A stretch of DNA of 32,327 nucleotides from a virus: IMG/VR virus record IMGVR_UViG_3300032333_000106, positions 1 to 32,327 of that record. One strand, given 5' to 3'. A program made the translations under genes and the position numbers. The notes beneath the pieces were generated by a model, which was not told the DNA's origin, searched no databases, and was given only the letters and a program-made list of their open reading frames with translations. This document shows positions 10,378 through 28,557 of this stretch, piece by piece; the first letter of the stretch is position 1; each line of letters opens with the position of its first letter.

Positions 10378-12087
10378 TTATGATTGTAAAATTGACATAA
10401 TAGATTCTACTAAGTCTTTTTCACTTTTAATTTGTTCGTAATCCACTTTATCTATAAAATTACCTTCTATAGAAAATCCTTGGTATTTGCCTTGTTTAAC
10501 CATCTCCCAAACTTTAGGATCTGTTACTTTCATTTTAACCATCCAAGTTCCAACCGGTACACCTAGTTTGTATACAGAATTGGCTTTATCGTTTTTGTCT
10601 TCTACCAACCAAGATTCAAAGACAAAACTGCCGCCGTGAACATTATCGTTATGATCCAAATTAGTAGATCCAAGACGTGTTTCACGCATAAACTTTTCTT
10701 GAATTTTTGCAATTGTTTCTTTAGAAAATTTAACATAATATACTTCTCCAGTCTCTTCGTCTCTTCTAAGAATCTCCATATCTGGTACCATTGCTGGTCC
10801 TACTAATATCTGTTGTTCTTTTTCAACTGCAAAAGCAAGTTTAGTTTCTTTAGATTTAACAGGAATACAGTTTGGAGTTCCATCGTCTTTTAAACCATAC
10901 GCTTCGTATCCTTCCCAACATGGATTAGGTTCTAAAAATTCTTCTTCTTCTAATATTGGTCCGCCTGCTATCCAAGCATCACAAGTTCTTGCTGCTGCAC
11001 ATTTAAAATCAAATGCTTCGCAATAACCTAATTCACCAGCTGCAATTGCATCGTAAGGATCTGCGAGGGCTTCCTCACCAACTCCTGCAGCAATACAAGC
11101 AAGCATAGATTTAGTGCGAACAAAAAATCCACAGTTACCGCAAGTTGCACTTTTAGCATCTTTAACTGTAGTGTTAAATTTATCTGCTTTTGCTTGCCAA
11201 TATTCTTCGTTAGATTCGCCTGGATTTAACGGTCCATAATTTGCTTGATCTATTGCATCTTGACGATTAGCAAGATTTAGTTCTATATCTACTGTAGATT
11301 CTGGACATCCATACTCATTAAACTTTGCTAGTTTTTTCTTTTTAGGAGTTTGTTCTACGTAAGGAGGTAAACCAGAAGTATCGTAACTCATTTTTTCCCG
11401 AATGCTTTCTAATTTGTTACTTGCCCATTCTATTCCTGCTGTTCCACCCCATGCATCCCACATAAGTTTACCACATCCTTCAGAGTAAGGTGTATCTGCA
11501 TTTTGTGCATGTCTAGCAAAACTTGCCATACGTGCTATAGTTTCTTCGGAAATAGGTTCACGATTTGCTAACTGATTAGCTCTTGCTTTACCGATTGGTG
11601 TACCGCAATCACCCCAACCATTTTCTTCTGCCCATGCTAATGCTCTTTTGGCTGCTTCAGTAGCAGATTCCGGATAGTCTGTATAAGATTCAAATTGCAT
11701 AGAAGCCATATTAGCACGAATCCATCCACAAAGTCTATTTGCAGATTCTTCGTCTAAACCTCTAGCTGATTGATCTGCAATGCACTCGTCCCAAGGATAA
11801 TCAGCAAATTTTTCTTTAGTGTGTTTTTGTTCGTACATAGAAATGCATACTGCAACTGCTTGATCTTGATCTTTACCTTCGTCTATTAAAACTGGAACGC
11901 ATCTGCTCATAAAATCAGATTCCGATTCACCAGCAGAAGGTTCTACAAATTTTTGATTACGCATGTAAACGAAATACTTTTCGATAGCTGGACTGTCGAC
12001 TAAAGCAATAGCAGAAACGCCAGATTCTTCTAGCTCCTCCATTACTTCTAATTCTATAACACGCTTTTCTTTATTTTTATTTTCCAT
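10378..12087 (-). CDS. XkdF-like prohead serine protease with N-terminal multidomain extension
   Basis: 569 aa, far longer than a bare prohead protease (about 200 aa). The C-terminal part (about 415-545) looks like the XkdF/peptidase S78_2 domain: QQILVGPAMVPDMEILRRDE, a candidate catalytic His479 in NLDHND, and a candidate Ser539 in YQGFSIEGNF. The N-terminal part begins VMEELEESGVSAIALVDSPAI, a segment that belongs to the protease domain in its relatives. Inserted between are helical modules (DFMSRCVPVLIDEG, AAKRALAWAEENGWGDCGT, ARMASFARHAQ) and a Cys-rich segment (ATCGNCGFF...GYCEAFDFKC...RTCDAW). The protein should mature the capsid by cleaving scaffold. Role of the inserted modules unknown. 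Confidence 0.75.
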   Translation of the reverse strand: MENKNKEKRVIELEVMEELEESGVSAIALVDSPAIEKYFVYMRNQKFVEPSAGESESDFMSRCVPVLIDEGKDQDQAVAVCISMYEQKHTKEKFADYPWDECIADQSARGLDEESANRLCGWIRANMASMQFESYTDYPESATEAAKRALAWAEENGWGDCGTPIGKARANQLANREPISEETIARMASFARHAQNADTPYSEGCGKLMWDAWGGTAGIEWASNKLESIREKMSYDTSGLPPYVEQTPKKKKLAKFNEYGCPESTVDIELNLANRQDAIDQANYGPLNPGESNEEYWQAKADKFNTTVKDAKSATCGNCGFFVRTKSMLACIAAGVGEEALADPYDAIAAGELGYCEAFDFKCAAARTCDAWIAGGPILEEEEFLEPNPCWEGYEAYGLKDDGTPNCIPVKSKETKLAFAVEKEQQILVGPAMVPDMEILRRDEETGEVYYVKFSKETIAKIQEKFMRETRLGSTNLDHNDNVHGGSFVFESWLVEDKNDKANSVYKLGVPVGTWMVKMKVTDPKVWEMVKQGKYQGFSIEGNFIDKVDYEQIKSEKDLVESIMSILQS

Positions 12088-12116: not shown

Positions 12117-14546
12117 TTAGATTTTTGCCAAATCCATCAACTTCTTATTTGCTTCTTGTTGAGAAGTCATTTCAGAAGCAACCACATAAGTTTTAACAAT
12201 TGGTGTTTGTTGTGCTGACATCATTGCTTGTACAGTGTCCATATTAAACGTCATTCCTCCGTCTTGATATTTTCTATTACCAGCAGAATTTATTGCCGTT
12301 AAGAGTGGTAAGAATGACGCTGTGGATCGTCTATTGATTACATACTCACCACCTTCTAGTTCTCCAAAAGAAGTTTTAATTCCTCCCTCAGAATGTCTTG
12401 GTCCTCTAAGTAAACCGCCTTTTGCAAATGTAGTTCCTATTGCTCCTGAAGGATTTGCTCCTCCACCATTATTTCCTCCTCCCCCAGTATCTGCAGAATC
12501 AATATCTGCAATTCCTTTTGCTGCACCTGCAATAGCACCTACGACCCCAATAGCTGCTCCAATTTTAGTAGTAACAATACTTCTTGCTAAGTTAGCTGCA
12601 ATCAATGGAGCTAACGGAGGAAAAAGCATAGACTGAGCAGAAGCTGCTGAAGTTTGTTGTGCAATAGAAGCCGAAGCACCAATTAAAATCTTAGCAATAT
12701 TTGCACCTTGCTCTAGAATAACACCTGCTTTAGCAAGTCCTTTATTCTTACCTGCAAATTGGGTAAGCAAACTACCAACCATTCCAACAGCATCTGCATA
12801 AGCAAATTGAATTTCTGCTTTAGATTTTGCTGCTGCTTGCTCTACTTCAACACTTGCTTGTGCTAATGCTTTTTGACGATCAAAAGCATTCTGATCTATT
12901 GCTAAACTTGCATCTGTTACTGCAACGTCATTATCTAGTTTTTGTTGGTCGTAAGTTTGTTGATTTATTAAAGAACTTTCGTCATACTGTTTCTGCGAAA
13001 TTGCTTTATTTGCAAGAGCAGTATCTAATGCTAACTTGTTTGTGTTATAAGTTGTTTCGTCATCAGTCTGTTTCTGCTTAGCAAAAGCTAAATTAGATGC
13101 TAATGATTTGTCTTGATATTCTTGTTCTGTTATTAATCCATCAAAAAGTTGTTTAGCTAAACCTTGTAATGCTTTCTGTGACTGGTAGTTTCTTTTACTT
13201 TCTCTTAATTTTTGCTCTTTGTCTAGATATTGTTCTAACTTTTTAAGACGTTCTTCTTGTGCTTTTTCTTCCCTATCTTGATCCTCTTTATTATACTTTT
13301 CTGCAATTTTAGCAAGAGCTGCTGCTTGACCCTTTTTAAGTTGGGTCGTATCCATTCCGTACTTTTCAGCAAGAGCAATTAGTCTTGCATATTTTTCGTT
13401 AACAACACGTTCTTCTTTTTCTTTTTCACTTAATGTTTCTTGTAAAGCTTCTTCGTTACCTTTTTTAATTTCATCTAATTCTTTATCTCTTGCCGCTTTA
13501 TTTTTAGTTCTTTGAGCTTCTGCTTTTTGATTTGCTAGATCTGTAGCTTTTTTAGATGCATTTAATTGGAAATCTGCATAATCTGCTTGAGAGTTTCTTA
13601 AATCAGCTAAAGTATTTTTTGTATTTCTTACTTGATCCTTATAAGCAGTTTCTTGATCGTCTCTTAATTTTTGTGCGGCTGCTAATTCCTCTTTTCTATT
13701 TTTATCTGCTTGTATTATTTTAAGGTTATTAATAGCAGAATTTTTTCTTTCTTCAGCTTTTACTTCGTCTAGTCTAGATTGATTATAAAGTTTTCTAGCA
13801 TTTTCTATATTTGCTTTTAGAATTTCTTCTTCACTTGCACCTTGTTTTTTTAAAGTTGCAATTCTTAATCTATTTTCAGCTTGAATATCATTAGTTCTTT
13901 CTTGTTGAGCTTTTTTATTTCTTTCAAATGATTCAGTTAGTCTATCTGTTGCAGTTGTTGCGTCTTCAGTGTTGCTAGTATATTCCATCAATGCTGAAAT
14001 CAAATAACCAAGACCAACAACTATTGCACCAATTCCGGTTGCAACTAATGCAGCAGAAAAAGCTCTAGCTCCAGCTGCAGCTGCTTGTTCTCCTACTCCA
14101 ACAGCAATAAATGATTTAGAAAGAAAATTATTAACTACAGTATAGACTTTTGTAATACCTGTTAGATTACCAATAGTCGTAGCCATTCCTTTAAAATCTT
14201 GTAAAAGATTACCAATTTGTGCTTTTATATCAGTAACTTTTAAACTACCAAAAATCTTAAAAGCATCGATAGTTTGTTCTAAGGTATTACTAACCTGACC
14301 AATAGGTCCAGGCAATAAACTGAATGTACCGAAAATATCTTTAGACTTCGTATTAACACGATCTAAAGCATCTTTAGTATCATTAAACGTATTATTTAGA
14401 ATGTGCCATTCTTTAGTACCTTCAGGAACGGTTTGCAATTCTCTTTTTAATAACTTAGTCTTTTCAGTCAAAGTTAATGTTCTGTCGGTTGCAAATTCTA
14501 CTGATTCTGAATCTACGTCTATTTTAATTTGAACTTTTCCGGCCAT
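12117..14546 (-). CDS. Tail tape measure protein
   Basis: 809 aa. Hydrophobic segments at about 155-190 (FSAALVATGIGAIVVGLGYL) and about 615-690 (IGAAIGVVGAIAGAAKGIA) flank a very long Lys/Glu/Gln-rich coiled coil (about 200-590). The C-terminus carries the motif KGGLLRGPRHSEGGIKTSFG.LEGGEYVIN, common in tape measures of Bacteroidota phages. It is packed inside the tail tube and sets tail length. Using about 0.15 nm per residue, a tail of about 120 nm would be expected. Unusually, the distal tail genes lie upstream of it in the operon and the prohead protease downstream. Confidence 0.88.
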   Translation of the reverse strand: MAGKVQIKIDVDSESVEFATDRTLTLTEKTKLLKRELQTVPEGTKEWHILNNTFNDTKDALDRVNTKSKDIFGTFSLLPGPIGQVSNTLEQTIDAFKIFGSLKVTDIKAQIGNLLQDFKGMATTIGNLTGITKVYTVVNNFLSKSFIAVGVGEQAAAAGARAFSAALVATGIGAIVVGLGYLISALMEYTSNTEDATTATDRLTESFERNKKAQQERTNDIQAENRLRIATLKKQGASEEEILKANIENARKLYNQSRLDEVKAEERKNSAINNLKIIQADKNRKEELAAAQKLRDDQETAYKDQVRNTKNTLADLRNSQADYADFQLNASKKATDLANQKAEAQRTKNKAARDKELDEIKKGNEEALQETLSEKEKEERVVNEKYARLIALAEKYGMDTTQLKKGQAAALAKIAEKYNKEDQDREEKAQEERLKKLEQYLDKEQKLRESKRNYQSQKALQGLAKQLFDGLITEQEYQDKSLASNLAFAKQKQTDDETTYNTNKLALDTALANKAISQKQYDESSLINQQTYDQQKLDNDVAVTDASLAIDQNAFDRQKALAQASVEVEQAAAKSKAEIQFAYADAVGMVGSLLTQFAGKNKGLAKAGVILEQGANIAKILIGASASIAQQTSAASAQSMLFPPLAPLIAANLARSIVTTKIGAAIGVVGAIAGAAKGIADIDSADTGGGGNNGGGANPSGAIGTTFAKGGLLRGPRHSEGGIKTSFGELEGGEYVINRRSTASFLPLLTAINSAGNRKYQDGGMTFNMDTVQAMMSAQQTPIVKTYVVASEMTSQQEANKKLMDLAKI

Positions 14547-19794: not shown

Positions 19795-21417
19795 TTAAAT
19801 ATTTTGCATTGACTGTTCTGTGCTGAATTCTAGTACAAAATTAGCGGTATACAGTTTAACTTGTTTTATAGTTTTAACAGTGTAAGATTCTTCGCTTACT
19901 TTACACGTATAAGGAAAATCTTCTTGACCGATATACACCCAAGTCTGTGAACTTTTTACAATTCCTTTTAAGAATTCTACTTGTTCTTGAGTTAGGAAAT
20001 CAGAGGTAATTTGCCATTTAGTTTTTACTGCTCTGTTGTACTGACGCACACCACCTCTTAACCAGTTTTGTGTGGTATCGTCAGTTAATGCCACTGGTGT
20101 TGTTGCACTCCAATTAACTTCTGTCTGGTAAAAATCATCTGATCCAGCATCTATTGTCTCTTCTGCTTTCATAGTGAAATTCCAGTAATCTCTACCACCT
20201 AAAGAATTTAGCCAAGCCACTCTTGCACGTGGATACAAATAAGAACTGCAATCTTCTACAATATCAATTGTAAGTAATTCGGAAACTGGTACACTAGGTG
20301 CACCTGTAAATCCGCAACCTCCTGTAATGTTTAATTCATTAAATAACTGAACTGTGTAGTATTCTGGAACTTGTCCTAAAGAAGTAAATACTCCCATATC
20401 TTCTAAATCTTTCGGTCCAACTCTTAGAGATAAAAATTCTTGATTGTTTACACTAGAGAAAGAACCTGTTCCTCCGGTTGCAATAGATCCACCGCACGTA
20501 TATCTAGGACCACCACCAAAATTTACTTCATAGTTACCAATTGGATAGTTTCCTATTTCACCTGTTGCAGAATAGAAAGTAAACCAAGCAACTTTAGGAG
20601 AAGCGTTTTGTAATAAACCGCCTGTTCCGTATACTTCATAAACTGGATTACGGTTTAAAAATGTAACAGTGTAACGATCATAACCTAAAGCATCTGCACT
20701 AATGTTACGTGAAGGTGCAGCAGAAGTAGTTTGCCATGCACCTCCAGTTATAGATCTTGGTGCTTCGGATAAAAATAAACCAGGTCCACCACAGGTAGAA
20801 GGCGGCAAAACTGAATTGTTTTTTAAAACATAAGGTGCCATGTAACCAAATATACCGTAGTAATCTCCATAATTAACTGTAAGTGGAGAACTAACTGTTG
20901 GCATTTGCACTGTTAAATGTGCTTGTTGTTCTCTCCAATCTAAAGAAGAAGGTAAACAAATAACAGGAAGTACATCATTATTATCAGTCGGATCATTAAC
21001 ATCATAAAAGGTTTGGGATCCTAAAGGATAAGAAGGATTACCAGGAGTTGTATTTTGTAAACCGTCGTAAGTTACTGGATCTGCATTAGCAGCCGAACGA
21101 TATTGTTCTCCTGCATATAACTTAACATTACACACTGCATTAGTTCCCATTTTAAAAGGTAAACTAGTAGGCACACCTACTTCATTAGCAAAGTTACCTA
21201 TTTCTAAATAAGGATCTACCATTGAACTAATATCAATCATACCTGCACCAACCGGATTAGGTCTTTGAATAAAACGATTAATATAAACATCGTCTATGTA
21301 CATGTCGAACACATACGAAAAATCTATTTCTGTAGTTTTATCAGATGTTACAGACCAGATGATAGGGTTATATGCTGGTGAATAAAACTTAGGTCTAAAA
21401 TTAACTGCGGTTATCAT
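19795..21417 (-). CDS. Tail protein, probable distal tail/baseplate component, 540 aa
   Basis: 540 aa, beta-rich. Recognisable pattern: NFRPKFYSPAYNPIIWSVTS, DFSYVFDMYIDDVYINR, IDISSMVDPYLEIG at the N-terminus, and SDFLTQEQVEFLKGIVKSS, WVYIGQEDFPYTCKVSEE, QVKLYTANFVLEFSTEQ at the C-terminus. The C-terminal pattern resembles the end of distal tail-type proteins that clamp a jelly-roll to the tail tube. Its ATG overlaps the stop of the tail chaperone gene (ATGA at 21414-21417), so translation is coupled. The exact structural role is inferred. Confidence 0.7.
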   Translation of the reverse strand: MITAVNFRPKFYSPAYNPIIWSVTSDKTTEIDFSYVFDMYIDDVYINRFIQRPNPVGAGMIDISSMVDPYLEIGNFANEVGVPTSLPFKMGTNAVCNVKLYAGEQYRSAANADPVTYDGLQNTTPGNPSYPLGSQTFYDVNDPTDNNDVLPVICLPSSLDWREQQAHLTVQMPTVSSPLTVNYGDYYGIFGYMAPYVLKNNSVLPPSTCGGPGLFLSEAPRSITGGAWQTTSAAPSRNISADALGYDRYTVTFLNRNPVYEVYGTGGLLQNASPKVAWFTFYSATGEIGNYPIGNYEVNFGGGPRYTCGGSIATGGTGSFSSVNNQEFLSLRVGPKDLEDMGVFTSLGQVPEYYTVQLFNELNITGGCGFTGAPSVPVSELLTIDIVEDCSSYLYPRARVAWLNSLGGRDYWNFTMKAEETIDAGSDDFYQTEVNWSATTPVALTDDTTQNWLRGGVRQYNRAVKTKWQITSDFLTQEQVEFLKGIVKSSQTWVYIGQEDFPYTCKVSEESYTVKTIKQVKLYTANFVLEFSTEQSMQNI

Positions 21418-22205
21418 CTTACTGTTTTATATTTTACGAACATTTTTTGAACTTTCTTTTTCAGCTTTTCTGTTTTCATCGTGACGCCAAGCGAGAAAGT
21501 TAAGAGCTTCTTTGATACCCAATTTTGTAACTGCGCCCATCTTAAGTGGATCACGATCTGCAAGATTGGCAATTGTGGTGTACCAGTTTCTTCCAATACT
21601 TTGAGAATTTTGGACATCATCTTTTTGTTCTCCTTCGGAGTCTGATCCGAAAAGATTTTGGTAGCTCCTAAAGATGCTAGTTCGAAAGACAAAAAAAAAG
21701 CAGTAGCTGATTTTGCATGTTTAAGAGGAAGGTCTAAAAACAATTGGCATCTTTCTTTATAATCGTCTGAGTCATATTCTGCAACATCAAAAGAAAAAAG
21801 TCTTTGCTTTGTAATTGGTCGATATAAAATAGCTAACACTTCGTGTAAACGATTATCTGCATTTGGATCATTTACTAAAACATCTAGATCTACAAATTCT
21901 CCTAAAGTCATTTTATCAAAATCTACTAAGCCATAATTCACGCCTTTAAAAGCGATTTTATTAATTACTCCATTATTCTTAACTAGACTTTTTTCTAACA
22001 TTACTTCTAGTAAAGCAAACAGTTCTTTTAGTTCGTTATAAGGAACACGAATAAGATCGTCCATCGGACAACCACTTAATTCGTGAAGAATCTGATACTT
22101 GCCTTCCATGTCATCTAAGATTAAATGGGTTTTAATCTTATAATAATTCCCAATTGTAATTGTTGGAATTGTGTACTTTCTATCTTCGATTCTAAAATCT
22201 ATCAT
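21414..22205 (-). CDS. Tail assembly chaperone, frame-0 product (frameshift gene)
   Basis: 263 aa in frame 0: RIEDRKYTIPTITIGNYYKI, then LGEFVDLDVLVNDPNADN and LHEVLAILYRP, a pattern known for tail chaperones of Bacteroidota phages (TIGEFIDLD-type). At codons 169-172 the mRNA has GCT TTT TTT TTG, a T9 run (21699-21691). After it, frame 0 reads an atypical sequence (GVTMKTEKLKKKVQKMFVKYK), whereas the -1 frame gives a well-formed domain with WYTTIANLADRDPLKMG. Most siphovirus chaperones are made as a short and a frameshifted form that coat the tape measure during tail assembly. Here frame 0 stays open until the ATGA overlap with the next gene. Confidence 0.85.
   Translation of the reverse strand: MIDFRIEDRKYTIPTITIGNYYKIKTHLILDDMEGKYQILHELSGCPMDDLIRVPYNELKELFALLEVMLEKSLVKNNGVINKIAFKGVNYGLVDFDKMTLGEFVDLDVLVNDPNADNRLHEVLAILYRPITKQRLFSFDVAEYDSDDYKERCQLFLDLPLKHAKSATAFFLSFELASLGATKIFSDQTPKENKKMMSKILKVLEETGTPQLPILQIVIHLRWAQLQNWVSKKLLTFSLGVTMKTEKLKKKVQKMFVKYKTVR
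21427..21693 (-). other. -1 frame C-terminal domain of the tail assembly chaperone (T9 slippery site 21691-21699)
   Basis: After a -1 slip on TTT TTT the ribosome reads 88 further codons to TAA at 21429-21427, giving a 259-aa fusion. The domain reads VFRTSIFRSYQNLFGSDSEG..., then NWYTTIANLADRDPLKMG, AVTKLGIKEALNFLAWRHDE and a charged tail. The pattern 'W...I..LA..D..K...VT.L....ALNFLA' is what I expect for the conserved C-terminus of this family. The -1 frame has a stop (TAA at 21723-21721) just upstream, so entry must occur within about 30 nt, where T9 is the only slippery sequence. A homopolymer length error in the assembly would give the same picture. Confidence 0.75.
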
Positions 22206-22609
22206 TAAGCTCGATTTAATTGTTCTGTAATACCTTTTTCTAATTCTTCGGTGATTGCTTTTTCTAATTCTTGGTCTATCATTTCATAAACTGAATCAGA
22301 AAAGTTCATCCAATATCTAGGTCTAATTCCTCCTTCTCCTTTTCCAGGTTTAGGATTCCATTTTTTTCTTAGTAAGTTATAATAAGTTGTTGCATCATCC
22401 GTAGAAGTTGCTGCATCTTTTTCTTCTCCAGTACCGCGATGCAAATACATGCCATAGTCTGTAGGATCATAAATTATAAAACCGTATGCATCATAAACTA
22501 CTGCAATAGAATTTTTTAAATTGCCAGTATCTACTGGAGCCTGGGATCTTAAAATAGATTCTAATTTACGACTGATCTTATTATATGTTGGAGTTAAATC
22601 AATTTTCAT
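22205..22609 (-). CDS. HK97 gp10-like neck/tail-completion protein
   Basis: 134 aa with the family pattern LRSQAPVDTGNLKNSI at residues about 20-35, followed by a strand GFIIYDPTDYGMYLHRGTG, and a C-terminal helix (ELEKAITEELEKGITEQL). HK97 gp10-like proteins sit at the head-tail neck or help complete tails. The stop of this gene overlaps the start of the tail chaperone (TAATG, 1 nt). It follows the 157-aa gene by 2 nt. Confidence 0.78.
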   Translation of the reverse strand: MKIDLTPTYNKISRKLESILRSQAPVDTGNLKNSIAVVYDAYGFIIYDPTDYGMYLHRGTGEEKDAATSTDDATTYYNLLRKKWNPKPGKGEGGIRPRYWMNFSDSVYEMIDQELEKAITEELEKGITEQLNRA

Positions 22610-22611
22610 CT

Positions 22612-23085
22612 TTAACTAGCAAATGCTGCATCACAATTATTAAATGGATTCTTAACTTCCACTACTATTTCTGCTGACCAACCACTTAAGTTATTGTTAA
22701 ATGATTCTACAAATGGTCTACAGGTTACAGGTACTTCTAAGAATATTTCTACTTCTCCCCAAGTTGTTTGACGAATACGACTTAGCAAGTCCTGTAAGAT
22801 CATGAAGGTCGTATTCAACTGATCTTCTTGTACTTGCAGGTCGTAATTCGTAATGTCTTGTACACTTAAAGCAAAAGAGAACTCAACCTTTCCGCCGGCA
22901 TCTAGATCCGCACGTCTCGGAATGAGCATGACCAAAGGGTACTGAGTGGGATTCTGGGTATTCGTTTCGATATCCAAATCACTCAGTTGGCCAAACGTGA
23001 ATTGCTTAACATTTAAATGTGAAAGGGAGAGTTCTCTTAAATATTCCACCACTGACTTGAATGATGATAAAGGACCTGATGCCAT
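22612..23085 (-). CDS. Tail completion / terminator-like protein, first gene of the virion operon
   Basis: 157 aa from the ATG at 23085 (MASGPLSSFKSVVEYLREL). I prefer this start because in-frame upstream codons translate as low-complexity Phe/Cys-rich sequence and overlap the divergent gene. An N-terminal helix and then strands YPLVMLIPRRADL, KVEFSFALSVQDI, a helix TTFMILQDLLSRIRQ, and EVPVTCRPFVESFNNNLSGW / EIVVEV. This alpha-beta order fits tail terminator (gpU-like) or neck proteins. It starts the leftward operon; only 18 nt separate its ATG from the divergent ATG at 23104, so regulatory sequences must lie inside the neighbouring gene. Confidence 0.68.
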   Translation of the reverse strand: MASGPLSSFKSVVEYLRELSLSHLNVKQFTFGQLSDLDIETNTQNPTQYPLVMLIPRRADLDAGGKVEFSFALSVQDITNYDLQVQEDQLNTTFMILQDLLSRIRQTTWGEVEIFLEVPVTCRPFVESFNNNLSGWSAEIVVEVKNPFNNCDAAFAS

Positions 23086-23098
23086 AATCTTGACTTGT

Positions 23099-23114
23099 TT
23101 TACATGAGTATATA
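23099..23114 (-). promoter_or_regulatory. Conserved leader motif (copy 3), divergent gene boundary
   Basis: Minus strand CATATATACTCATGTAAA, with TACTCA ending 19 nt before the ATG at 23085. It matches copies 1 and 2 at AYATACTCAYRTA. It overlaps the start codon of the plus-strand gene at 23104, so a factor bound here could switch between the two directions. Confidence 0.4.
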
Positions 23115-23388
23115 TGGTACAAAAACTGCAGAAGAAATGGGAAAAAAAGCCAAAGAGCACCGTAAAAAAGTCCAAGCACGCAACGAAAAACTAGTTGCTG
23201 CACGTAAAAAATTCGAAAAAATGATGGGAGAAGAGTTTAAATCCCAAATGCAGGCACAGATGCAGGCACAACAAAAACCAATTTATGCCTCTACCGGTGA
23301 CTTCATAGCCAAGAATTACGATAAAATAGCAGAGCATGGAGCAATAGAATATCTAGAAAAGAACAGCGATGTGGCATTTTCAAAATAG
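23104..23388 (+). CDS. Small charged coiled-coil protein, 94 aa
   Basis: ATG at 23104 (MSIYGTKTAEEMGKKAKEHR); an alternative in-frame ATG at 23137 would give 83 aa. Residues about 10-62 are a Lys/Glu/Gln-rich helix (KKVQARNEKLVAARKKFEKMM...QMQAQMQAQQKP) with coiled-coil character, followed by STGDFIAKNYDKIAEHGAIEYLE. No known family. It opens the plus-strand cassette and its end overlaps the next start by 20 nt. The QMQAQMQAQQ stretch comes from a direct 12-nt repeat. Function unknown; the position suggests an early or accessory gene. Confidence 0.7.
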   Translation: MSIYGTKTAEEMGKKAKEHRKKVQARNEKLVAARKKFEKMMGEEFKSQMQAQMQAQQKPIYASTGDFIAKNYDKIAEHGAIEYLEKNSDVAFSK

Positions 23389-27277: not shown

Positions 27278-27305
27278 GAACCACTCTTCGGAGTGGTTCT
27301 TTTTT
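27278..27305 (+). terminator. Rho-independent terminator of the plus-strand cassette
   Basis: Perfect 9-bp stem GAACCACTC/GAGTGGTTC with a TTCG tetraloop, followed by six T at 27300-27305. It ends the rightward cassette exactly at the terL stop codon (27304-27306). There is no T-run for the opposite direction, so leftward terL transcripts may continue as antisense RNA into the cassette. Confidence 0.92.
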
Positions 27306-28557
27306 AGAAATCTAACAACGCTCCACGCTTGCCCGAACCAATAAATGTGTAACCAGAACCACTTCCTATTTGTAACTTGGTACCAACTGCGTACCGCAAA
27401 GCATCCATAATATGATTGTAATTGTCTATAGGAGCGTCAGTCTTTTCACGGTAATAGTAGTTGTCGTACTCAAGACGCAGATTAAAACTCATAGCATCAG
27501 CATGTACTTGGTACGAATTGATCGTGTCAATGCCGGCGCGTATAGAATCCGGACCCTTTACGCAAGGTCTTATATTACGCCAACCCAATCGTCTCAAGGT
27601 TTCTATAGATCTAGGATCAGCAGAATCAGCCACAATAACAGAATGCTGTGGGATCTTGGCCTTAGTCATAGCGCGATGCAAGTCATCAATGGTCAGACCA
27701 GTTTGGTAAAGCAACTCGCGCACCCATAATTTGTTACCCCTTTTCTTAACTTCTACTAGTGCTGTAGGATCGTGGGCAAATCCAAAGTCTAGACCTAAGA
27801 TTGTTTCCGCTTCTGCATCTGGTTCGAAATAAGTCCAATCCCAATTCTTAAACACCTGTCCTTCTCCAACATCTTTCCACTTACCTAAGATCTGGTGCTC
27901 ATAGTAACTTGGATCTATTACCCGCATTCTCTCCCATTCTGCGATCTTACTCTCATCTAGATGTTCTGCATTGTCGTGATAGGTTGTGTGCAAGAAGCAA
28001 TGATCTATACTCCACTTAGGATGTGGACTGCCATCTGGTAGATAGAACCTTTGAAAGATCCAATGGTTCTTACTGGTTGGGTTAAAGCAAAGAAAGATCC
28101 TACGCTCAGCGCCCTTGGTACGGAACGAGTCAATTAGCTTGATGTACTCATCTTCACTAGGCATCTCTGTTGCTTCATCTATGAGTAGGTGGGTCACATT
28201 GGAAAGACCTTTACCTTTAGCCGACATCGAGTTCTCTGTCATCTTCATAGCGTGGGTAATGATAAGGTTGCCATTGGCTGGATTCTCGATCTCGTCTCCT
28301 GTGATCCTGATCCTATCCTTAAGTCCCCACTTGTCTATCAGATCTAGGATGTCACGGTAAATGGAGGAGGAGATACTCTTTTGGGTGTATCGGGAAACAA
28401 CGCCTCTGAACCTGTCTTCGCCAAACAGTTTAACCAGAAAGTAAGCGGCGATTTGGGTGGATTTCCCCGATGCTCTGCCACCACTGATAACGAAGTAGTT
28501 CTTGTCTTTCTCGTAGAAGATGGGATGGTAAGCATCTAAGAATTTAAATTCGGCCAT
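27304..28557 (-). CDS. terL: Terminase large subunit (PBSX/phage terminase_3 type)
   Basis: 417 aa, full length. The ATPase domain has Walker A GGRASGKST (26-34), Walker B THLLIDEATEM with D127/E128, and a coupling motif FLCFNPTS (155-162). The nuclease domain has three acidic residues in ILGLDFGFAHDP (D257), VIVADSADP (D311) and NHIMDALRY (D385). It pumps and cuts phage DNA at the portal. The region upstream contains a 325-nt GC-rich spacer, and terS lies beyond it on the same strand. All motifs are intact. Confidence 0.95.
   Translation of the reverse strand: MAEFKFLDAYHPIFYEKDKNYFVISGGRASGKSTQIAAYFLVKLFGEDRFRGVVSRYTQKSISSSIYRDILDLIDKWGLKDRIRITGDEIENPANGNLIITHAMKMTENSMSAKGKGLSNVTHLLIDEATEMPSEDEYIKLIDSFRTKGAERRIFLCFNPTSKNHWIFQRFYLPDGSPHPKWSIDHCFLHTTYHDNAEHLDESKIAEWERMRVIDPSYYEHQILGKWKDVGEGQVFKNWDWTYFEPDAEAETILGLDFGFAHDPTALVEVKKRGNKLWVRELLYQTGLTIDDLHRAMTKAKIPQHSVIVADSADPRSIETLRRLGWRNIRPCVKGPDSIRAGIDTINSYQVHADAMSFNLRLEYDNYYYREKTDAPIDNYNHIMDALRYAVGTKLQIGSGSGYTFIGSGKRGALLDF

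Follow-up and report, generated by a model that had tools for sequence, protein, structure and literature searches.

Does a small phage gene interrupted by a run of nine T's make two proteins with different C-termini from one stretch of DNA, or is the run simply a base too long or too short in the assembly? The question is raised by a marine-phage gene on the minus strand of the window, by which we mean the whole stretch of 32,327 nucleotides analysed here. A preliminary description of this DNA had placed a programmed -1 frameshift at the run (T9), with two near-full-length products, and had called the gene a tail assembly chaperone. We refer to it below as the slip gene, and to its parts as the N domain, which precedes the run, the C domain, which follows it in the -1 frame, and the frame-0 tail.

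The slip gene in the window

The gene reads GCT TTT TTT TTG at 21701-21690 on the minus strand, with its nine T's at 21699-21691; no other A or T homopolymer in the 32-kb window reaches nine bases. Frame 0 extends from 22205 to a TGA at 21416-21414 that overlaps the ATG of the adjoining 540-aa gene (ATGA), while the -1 frame terminates at a stop at 21429-21427 and yields a fusion product of 259 aa with an 88-residue -1 tail. Since the TAA at 21723-21721 closes the -1 frame, the shift must occur downstream of it. On re-reading, the positions first reported for the T9 site, this TAA, the stop at 21427 and the ATGA overlap all hold, and the product sizes of 263 aa (frame 0) and 259 aa (-1 fusion) were reproduced. 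A change in the character of the frame-0 product at this point, as first described, does not hold in the same way: frame 0 runs on as a conserved, helix-like segment (FFxxLGxxL) and is itself selected. Coordinates are collected in Table 1.

Table 1. The slip gene, its elements and nearby genes in the window
Feature	Position	Strand	Basis or remark
Frame-0 ORF, N domain and frame-0 tail, 263 aa	21414..22205	-	homologues
T9 slip run; in-phase heptamer T TTT TTT at 21699-21693	21691..21699	-	run kept in relatives
-1 frame extension, 88 codons and stop; C domain FFxFRxSIF..NLF...WY...LGIKEALNFLAWRHDE	21427..21693	-	same domain in a single frame in L030/L031
Dual-coded region, both frames open and under purifying selection	21427..21690	-	substitution patterns
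TAA shutting the -1 frame upstream of the run	21721..21723	-	frame reading
540-aa gene downstream, its ATG overlapping the frame-0 stop; bait for relatives	19795..21417	-	
Upstream tail completion/neck gene	22205..22609	-	phrog_5; HK97-gp10-like
phrog_30964 gene (ATG at 23085, 157 aa); also found beside the slip gene in distant relatives	22612..23085	-	
Probable tape measure gene	12117..14546	-	three genes between it and the slip gene

Relatives share the run and both frames

A contig whose frame-0 protein is 85% identical to that of the window has the same T9, with both frames open. A first set of relatives, found through the neighbouring 540-aa gene and a profile of the fused protein, added 64 further loci in which domain HMMs place the N domain in frame 0 and the C domain in the -1 frame, joined at T9 or T10. 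This arrangement was recovered in 64 of 66 loci; in the other two, L030 and L031, a single frame encodes both domains and there is no T run, so that the conserved domain of the -1 frame also occurs fused in frame elsewhere. A second harvest, based on the C domain, confirmed at least 308 relatives in the collection and shares at least four contigs with the first set. Among the matches listed it gave 80 loci; in all 80, frame 0 carries the N domain and the -1 frame the C domain, and the runs are of 9 (66 loci), 10 (13) or 12 (1) T's. An in-phase T TTT TTT lies within an uninterrupted run of nine or more in 64/64 loci of the first set and in 80/80 of the second among the matches listed. Frame 0 stays open for 54-100 codons past the junction in every one of the 64 loci, and for 54-81 codons in every one of the 80 among the matches listed. 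The T run and the -1 C domain are present as well in two loci within Flavobacteriaceae genomes (L090 and L091).

A one-base homopolymer error in the window assembly, which the preliminary description had offered as its alternative, or a decayed gene, would appeal to the general proneness of homopolymers to error, but we reject both with near certainty: the identical run and frames recur across independent contigs of many metagenomes as well as isolates and bacterial genomes, and both frames are under selection. The outcomes named at the outset as contrary to a shift, namely a run of eight or ten T's forming a simple in-frame gene and homologues matching the frame-0 tail only, were both absent among the relatives.

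We also considered a shift elsewhere than at the T run. A first pairwise comparison hinted that some 30 codons beyond the run are constrained in frame 0, but in the wider set the -1 motif FRxSIF..NLF is conserved from the run onward, and hence both frames are used in these first ~30 codons.

Selection on both frames past the run

How often frame 0 would be open by chance was evaluated in 42 nonredundant genes with a null in which the -1 protein is fixed and synonymous codons are redrawn from local usage. Given the -1 protein and codon usage, the probability of an open frame 0 had a geometric mean of 0.0017 (~0.002 per gene), and all 42 genes were open where 0.5 were expected; the relatives share descent, and such counts are not counts of independent events. 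Amino-acid conservation in frame 0 exceeded the -1-only null by 0.6-2.1 BLOSUM units per site, compared with 0.1-0.6 in the single-coded upstream control.

Substitution rates, on a scale relative to neutral, were obtained from 13 disjoint close pairs that share no sequence, several of them from the same clade. In the upstream control, the rate was 0.455 for changes synonymous in frame 0 and 0.06-0.10 for nonsynonymous changes. In the dual-coded region it was 0.149 for changes synonymous only in -1, 0.112 for those synonymous only in frame 0, and 0.615, from only seven changes, for those synonymous in both. Sites synonymous only in -1 thus change at roughly a quarter of the rate of those synonymous in both frames, and changes that create a stop in frame 0 are depleted about 20-fold (ratio 0.05). 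The first 30 codons of the region lean to frame 0 and the remainder to -1. Codon substitution patterns in the relatives consequently reveal purifying selection on each frame, and they indicate that one DNA stretch encodes two selected C-termini. Together with the relatives themselves, this selection strongly supports the original proposal that the T run is the site of a programmed -1 shift and that two near-full-length proteins with different C-termini could arise.

Because selection keeps the frame-0 tail open and conserved, this tail would have a separate role of its own. The shift could still be real and the tail functionless, open merely by accident as in a G gene of the lambda type with a distant stop, and the great variation of the tail in length and sequence between clades and its shortness in the Nonlabens phages P12024S and P12024L (see below) would be in keeping with such an accident. 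This is nevertheless very improbable in view of a frame 0 that is open throughout both sets (64/64 and 80/80, the second among the matches listed), the chance of ~0.002 per gene under the null, the ~20-fold depletion of stop-creating changes and the ~four-fold slower change at sites synonymous only in -1.

Isolated phages and single-frame relatives

When the sequence of the window itself was compared directly with isolated phages, as DNA and as protein, there was no match; only diverged relatives provided the bridge to the cultivated Nonlabens phages P12024S and P12024L. These have T9, the N domain (in gp38 of P12024S) and the C domain in the -1 frame, the C-domain HMM matching P12024S down to E 2e-9. 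Together, gp38 and gp39 of P12024S make up a single slip gene, as do gp40 and gp41 of P12024L (L085:6767-7461 and L086:2767-3461). In the deposited record, part of the -1 C domain is listed as a separate gene, gp39 in P12024S. PHROG families 32199 and 38404 represent, respectively, the N half and the C half in these phages; both are catalogued as 'unknown function' and as two unrelated families, whereas they form one slip gene here. The analysis thereby joins two families of unknown function into one gene and corrects the annotations of the isolates. The two-ended gene was annotated in no database searched, and no report of its frameshift was found in the literature searched.

A profile comparison (66.9%, E 5e-5) linked the slip gene to the phrog_25418 gene of Duneviridae (gp05 of Cellulophaga phage Ingeline and gp10 of Flavobacterium phage 23T). 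By sequence, this gene is an apparent two-domain relative; in contrast to the two frames of the slip gene, it is one uninterrupted frame with no T run. The relative is whole in one frame in 23T and in FPSV-D15. In the gp10 region of Flavobacterium phage 6H (L100:1474-2349) the annotated protein is shorter (~191 aa) and the remainder matches as a separate piece, reflecting either a sequence error or a real frame break.

Gene neighbourhood and host

In the window the slip gene does not lie immediately upstream of the tape measure gene, as a lambda-type chaperone gene would. The gene order is unusual (12117-14546, 10378-12087, 1443-2675 and 27304-28557): the slip and tape measure genes precede the protease gene, the portal gene sits close to the opposite end of the transcript, and the terminase gene is upstream. 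For the ORF at 22612-23175, the TTG listed as the start (187 aa) probably lies too far upstream, since the relative in L001 begins at an ATG that corresponds to 23085 (157 aa).

About 150 bases between the terminase and slip genes are nearly identical in L073 (2215-2375) and at the equivalent places in L058, L077, L080 and L081. This spacer, probably a terminator or promoter region, holds a second T9 (AAGTAACTGTTTTTTTTTGGATTTGTTGTA). An Rfam search of L073 (2150-3200) returned no credible match.

Relatives sit in a Pricia MAG, in other Flavobacteriaceae genomes and in Nonlabens phages, and the window therefore most likely derives from a Flavobacteriia phage.

Function of the two products

The N domain is modelled confidently, with a pLDDT of mostly ~90 for residues 1-165 (78 for the whole model); the -1 tail modelled alone was poor (pLDDT 55). 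The viral models that resemble the N domain in structure are all of uncharacterised phage proteins, P12024S gp38 and a protein of Flavobacterium phage 6H among them. Foldseek gave no match below E 1 in the PDB, and no solved structure was matched in searches by sequence. The HK97 tail assembly chaperone 2ob9 appeared as a weak structural match (VIA-align Z 2.2, rmsd 4.2 over 70 residues), and weak Pfam matches were obtained to Phage_TAC_7 (E 0.0045) and Phage_Gp15 (E 0.041), each in one member of 41. There was no significant match to Pfam or PHROG tail-chaperone families, and no match in profile comparisons with lambda G, lambda T or HK97 gp13.

The preliminary description had named the gene a tail assembly chaperone with the domain expected for that family. 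This is supported in part. Its slip architecture and its surroundings of tail genes fit, and by analogy they make a G/GT-like role likely; but no significant homology was found and the tape measure gene is not adjacent, and on present evidence we would not class it among the lambda-type tail assembly chaperones. The products could instead be some other head-tail morphogenesis pair, for example a connector or scaffold protein in two forms. The many distant relatives in which the slip gene directly follows the terminase large subunit gene point that way, as do the failure to find homology to the lambda and HK97 chaperones and the separation from the tape measure gene. We regard this as possible, though less likely than not, considering that the slip gene adjoins a neck/tail gene, that its single-frame relatives in Duneviridae sit between the adaptor and tape measure genes, and that chaperones do surface among the weak matches (Phage_TAC_7 and Phage_Gp15 in Pfam, 2ob9 at Z 2.2).

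Ribosome or RNA polymerase

The heptamer T TTT TTT, in phase, is enough for tandem slippage of the ribosome. By phase, seven or eight T's would do for this heptamer, yet a run shorter than nine was never seen in the loci examined (the second set among the matches listed), and the runs of nine or more occur in different codon phases and with different flanking residues. In those clades in which the last T of the heptamer could be replaced by C silently in both frames, it is always T (16 and 49 nonredundant genes); the product of TTT frequencies would be ~0.007 for the 16 and 3e-6 for the 49 were the genes independent, but they are related. As a neutral control for this T we had chosen the Phe codon in the FR motif, which proved to be fixed by frame 0 and hence not neutral.

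A stimulatory RNA structure often, though not always, accompanies programmed -1 frameshifts and does not strictly define them. No conserved RNA structure was found downstream of the run (mean z -0.23, against -0.76 in the control), there was no consistent signal of a downstream stimulator hairpin or of a Shine-Dalgarno-like stimulator, and an Rfam search gave no match. In many bacterial genomes, moreover, it is from a length of nine that selection can be seen to act against A/T slippage runs (PMC1088944).

The invariant run of at least nine, the fixed last T, the lack of RNA structure and this threshold of nine together make slippage of RNA polymerase a serious rival to ribosomal frameshifting. 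The polymerase would stutter on T9 or T10, and mRNAs with one extra U would put normal ribosomes in the -1 frame. We rate the chances of this as somewhat short of even. Flanking residues constrained in both frames can by themselves hold the run, and the sequences are related, so that the counts overstate independence. The fixed last T has a ribosomal reading too, in that UUU in the A site favours slipping over UUC by a codon-anticodon argument. Overall we lean slightly to the ribosome as the element that slips. The Nonlabens phages P12024S and P12024L offer a ready laboratory system for this question.

It is quite conceivable, if not what we would wager on, that a widespread family of morphogenesis genes in phages of Flavobacteriia encodes two functional and independently selected C-terminal domains over the same 54-100 codons because RNA polymerase slips on a T run whose length is invariably nine or more. 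If true, this would be a type of recoding with true dual coding that is undescribed for phage assembly genes in the literature searched.

Proposed model and comparison with known systems

Sequence comparison argues with good confidence for a model in which a programmed -1 shift occurs at the T9 run, on the slip heptamer T TTT TTT, with two products that act as a morphogenesis pair and a functional frame-0 tail. Most products would be read straight through in frame 0 (263 aa), while a fraction would switch to -1 and gain the different C domain of 88 residues (259 aa), both proteins presumably being made at a set ratio. The N domain would be common to both, and the -1 C domain may bind a second partner. 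By analogy with lambda gpG/gpGT, the pair would act together in morphogenesis, probably in tail assembly.

In textbook phage frameshifts a domain is added and the normal frame ends shortly afterwards; in the slip gene, by contrast, that frame too is maintained under selection along much of the added domain. Two protein tails would thus come from one DNA stretch across well over a hundred phage contigs and their cultivated relatives.

In lambda gpG/gpGT, ribosomes that slip by -1 close to the end of a small morphogenesis gene produce a minor fusion protein carrying a second domain (PMC5009743). The slip gene resembles this pair and HK97 gp13/gp13-14 in its fusion by a -1 slip and in its neighbourhood of tail genes. 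It differs in its site, which is T9 rather than of the GGGAAAG type, in having both tails under selection, in showing no detected homology and in not adjoining the tape measure gene. The extent of frame 0 after the slip also differs. In lambda G the frame-0 stop follows five codons after the GGGAAAG heptamer, and in HK97 gp13 a GGGAAAA heptamer, a candidate slip site, lies five codons before the stop. Against the ~5 codons of lambda G, frame 0 of the slip gene continues for 54-100; in the most divergent members it continues for 25 (P12024S/L) and ~42 (L091), so that long dual coding holds in most, not all, members.

Genes with transcriptional slippage at runs of nine A or T are known from Thermus dnaX and from IS elements (PMC1088944), and these are alike in that a run of nine bridges two frames. 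The slip gene, a candidate for such slippage, stands apart from them in the long stretch over which both frames are conserved.
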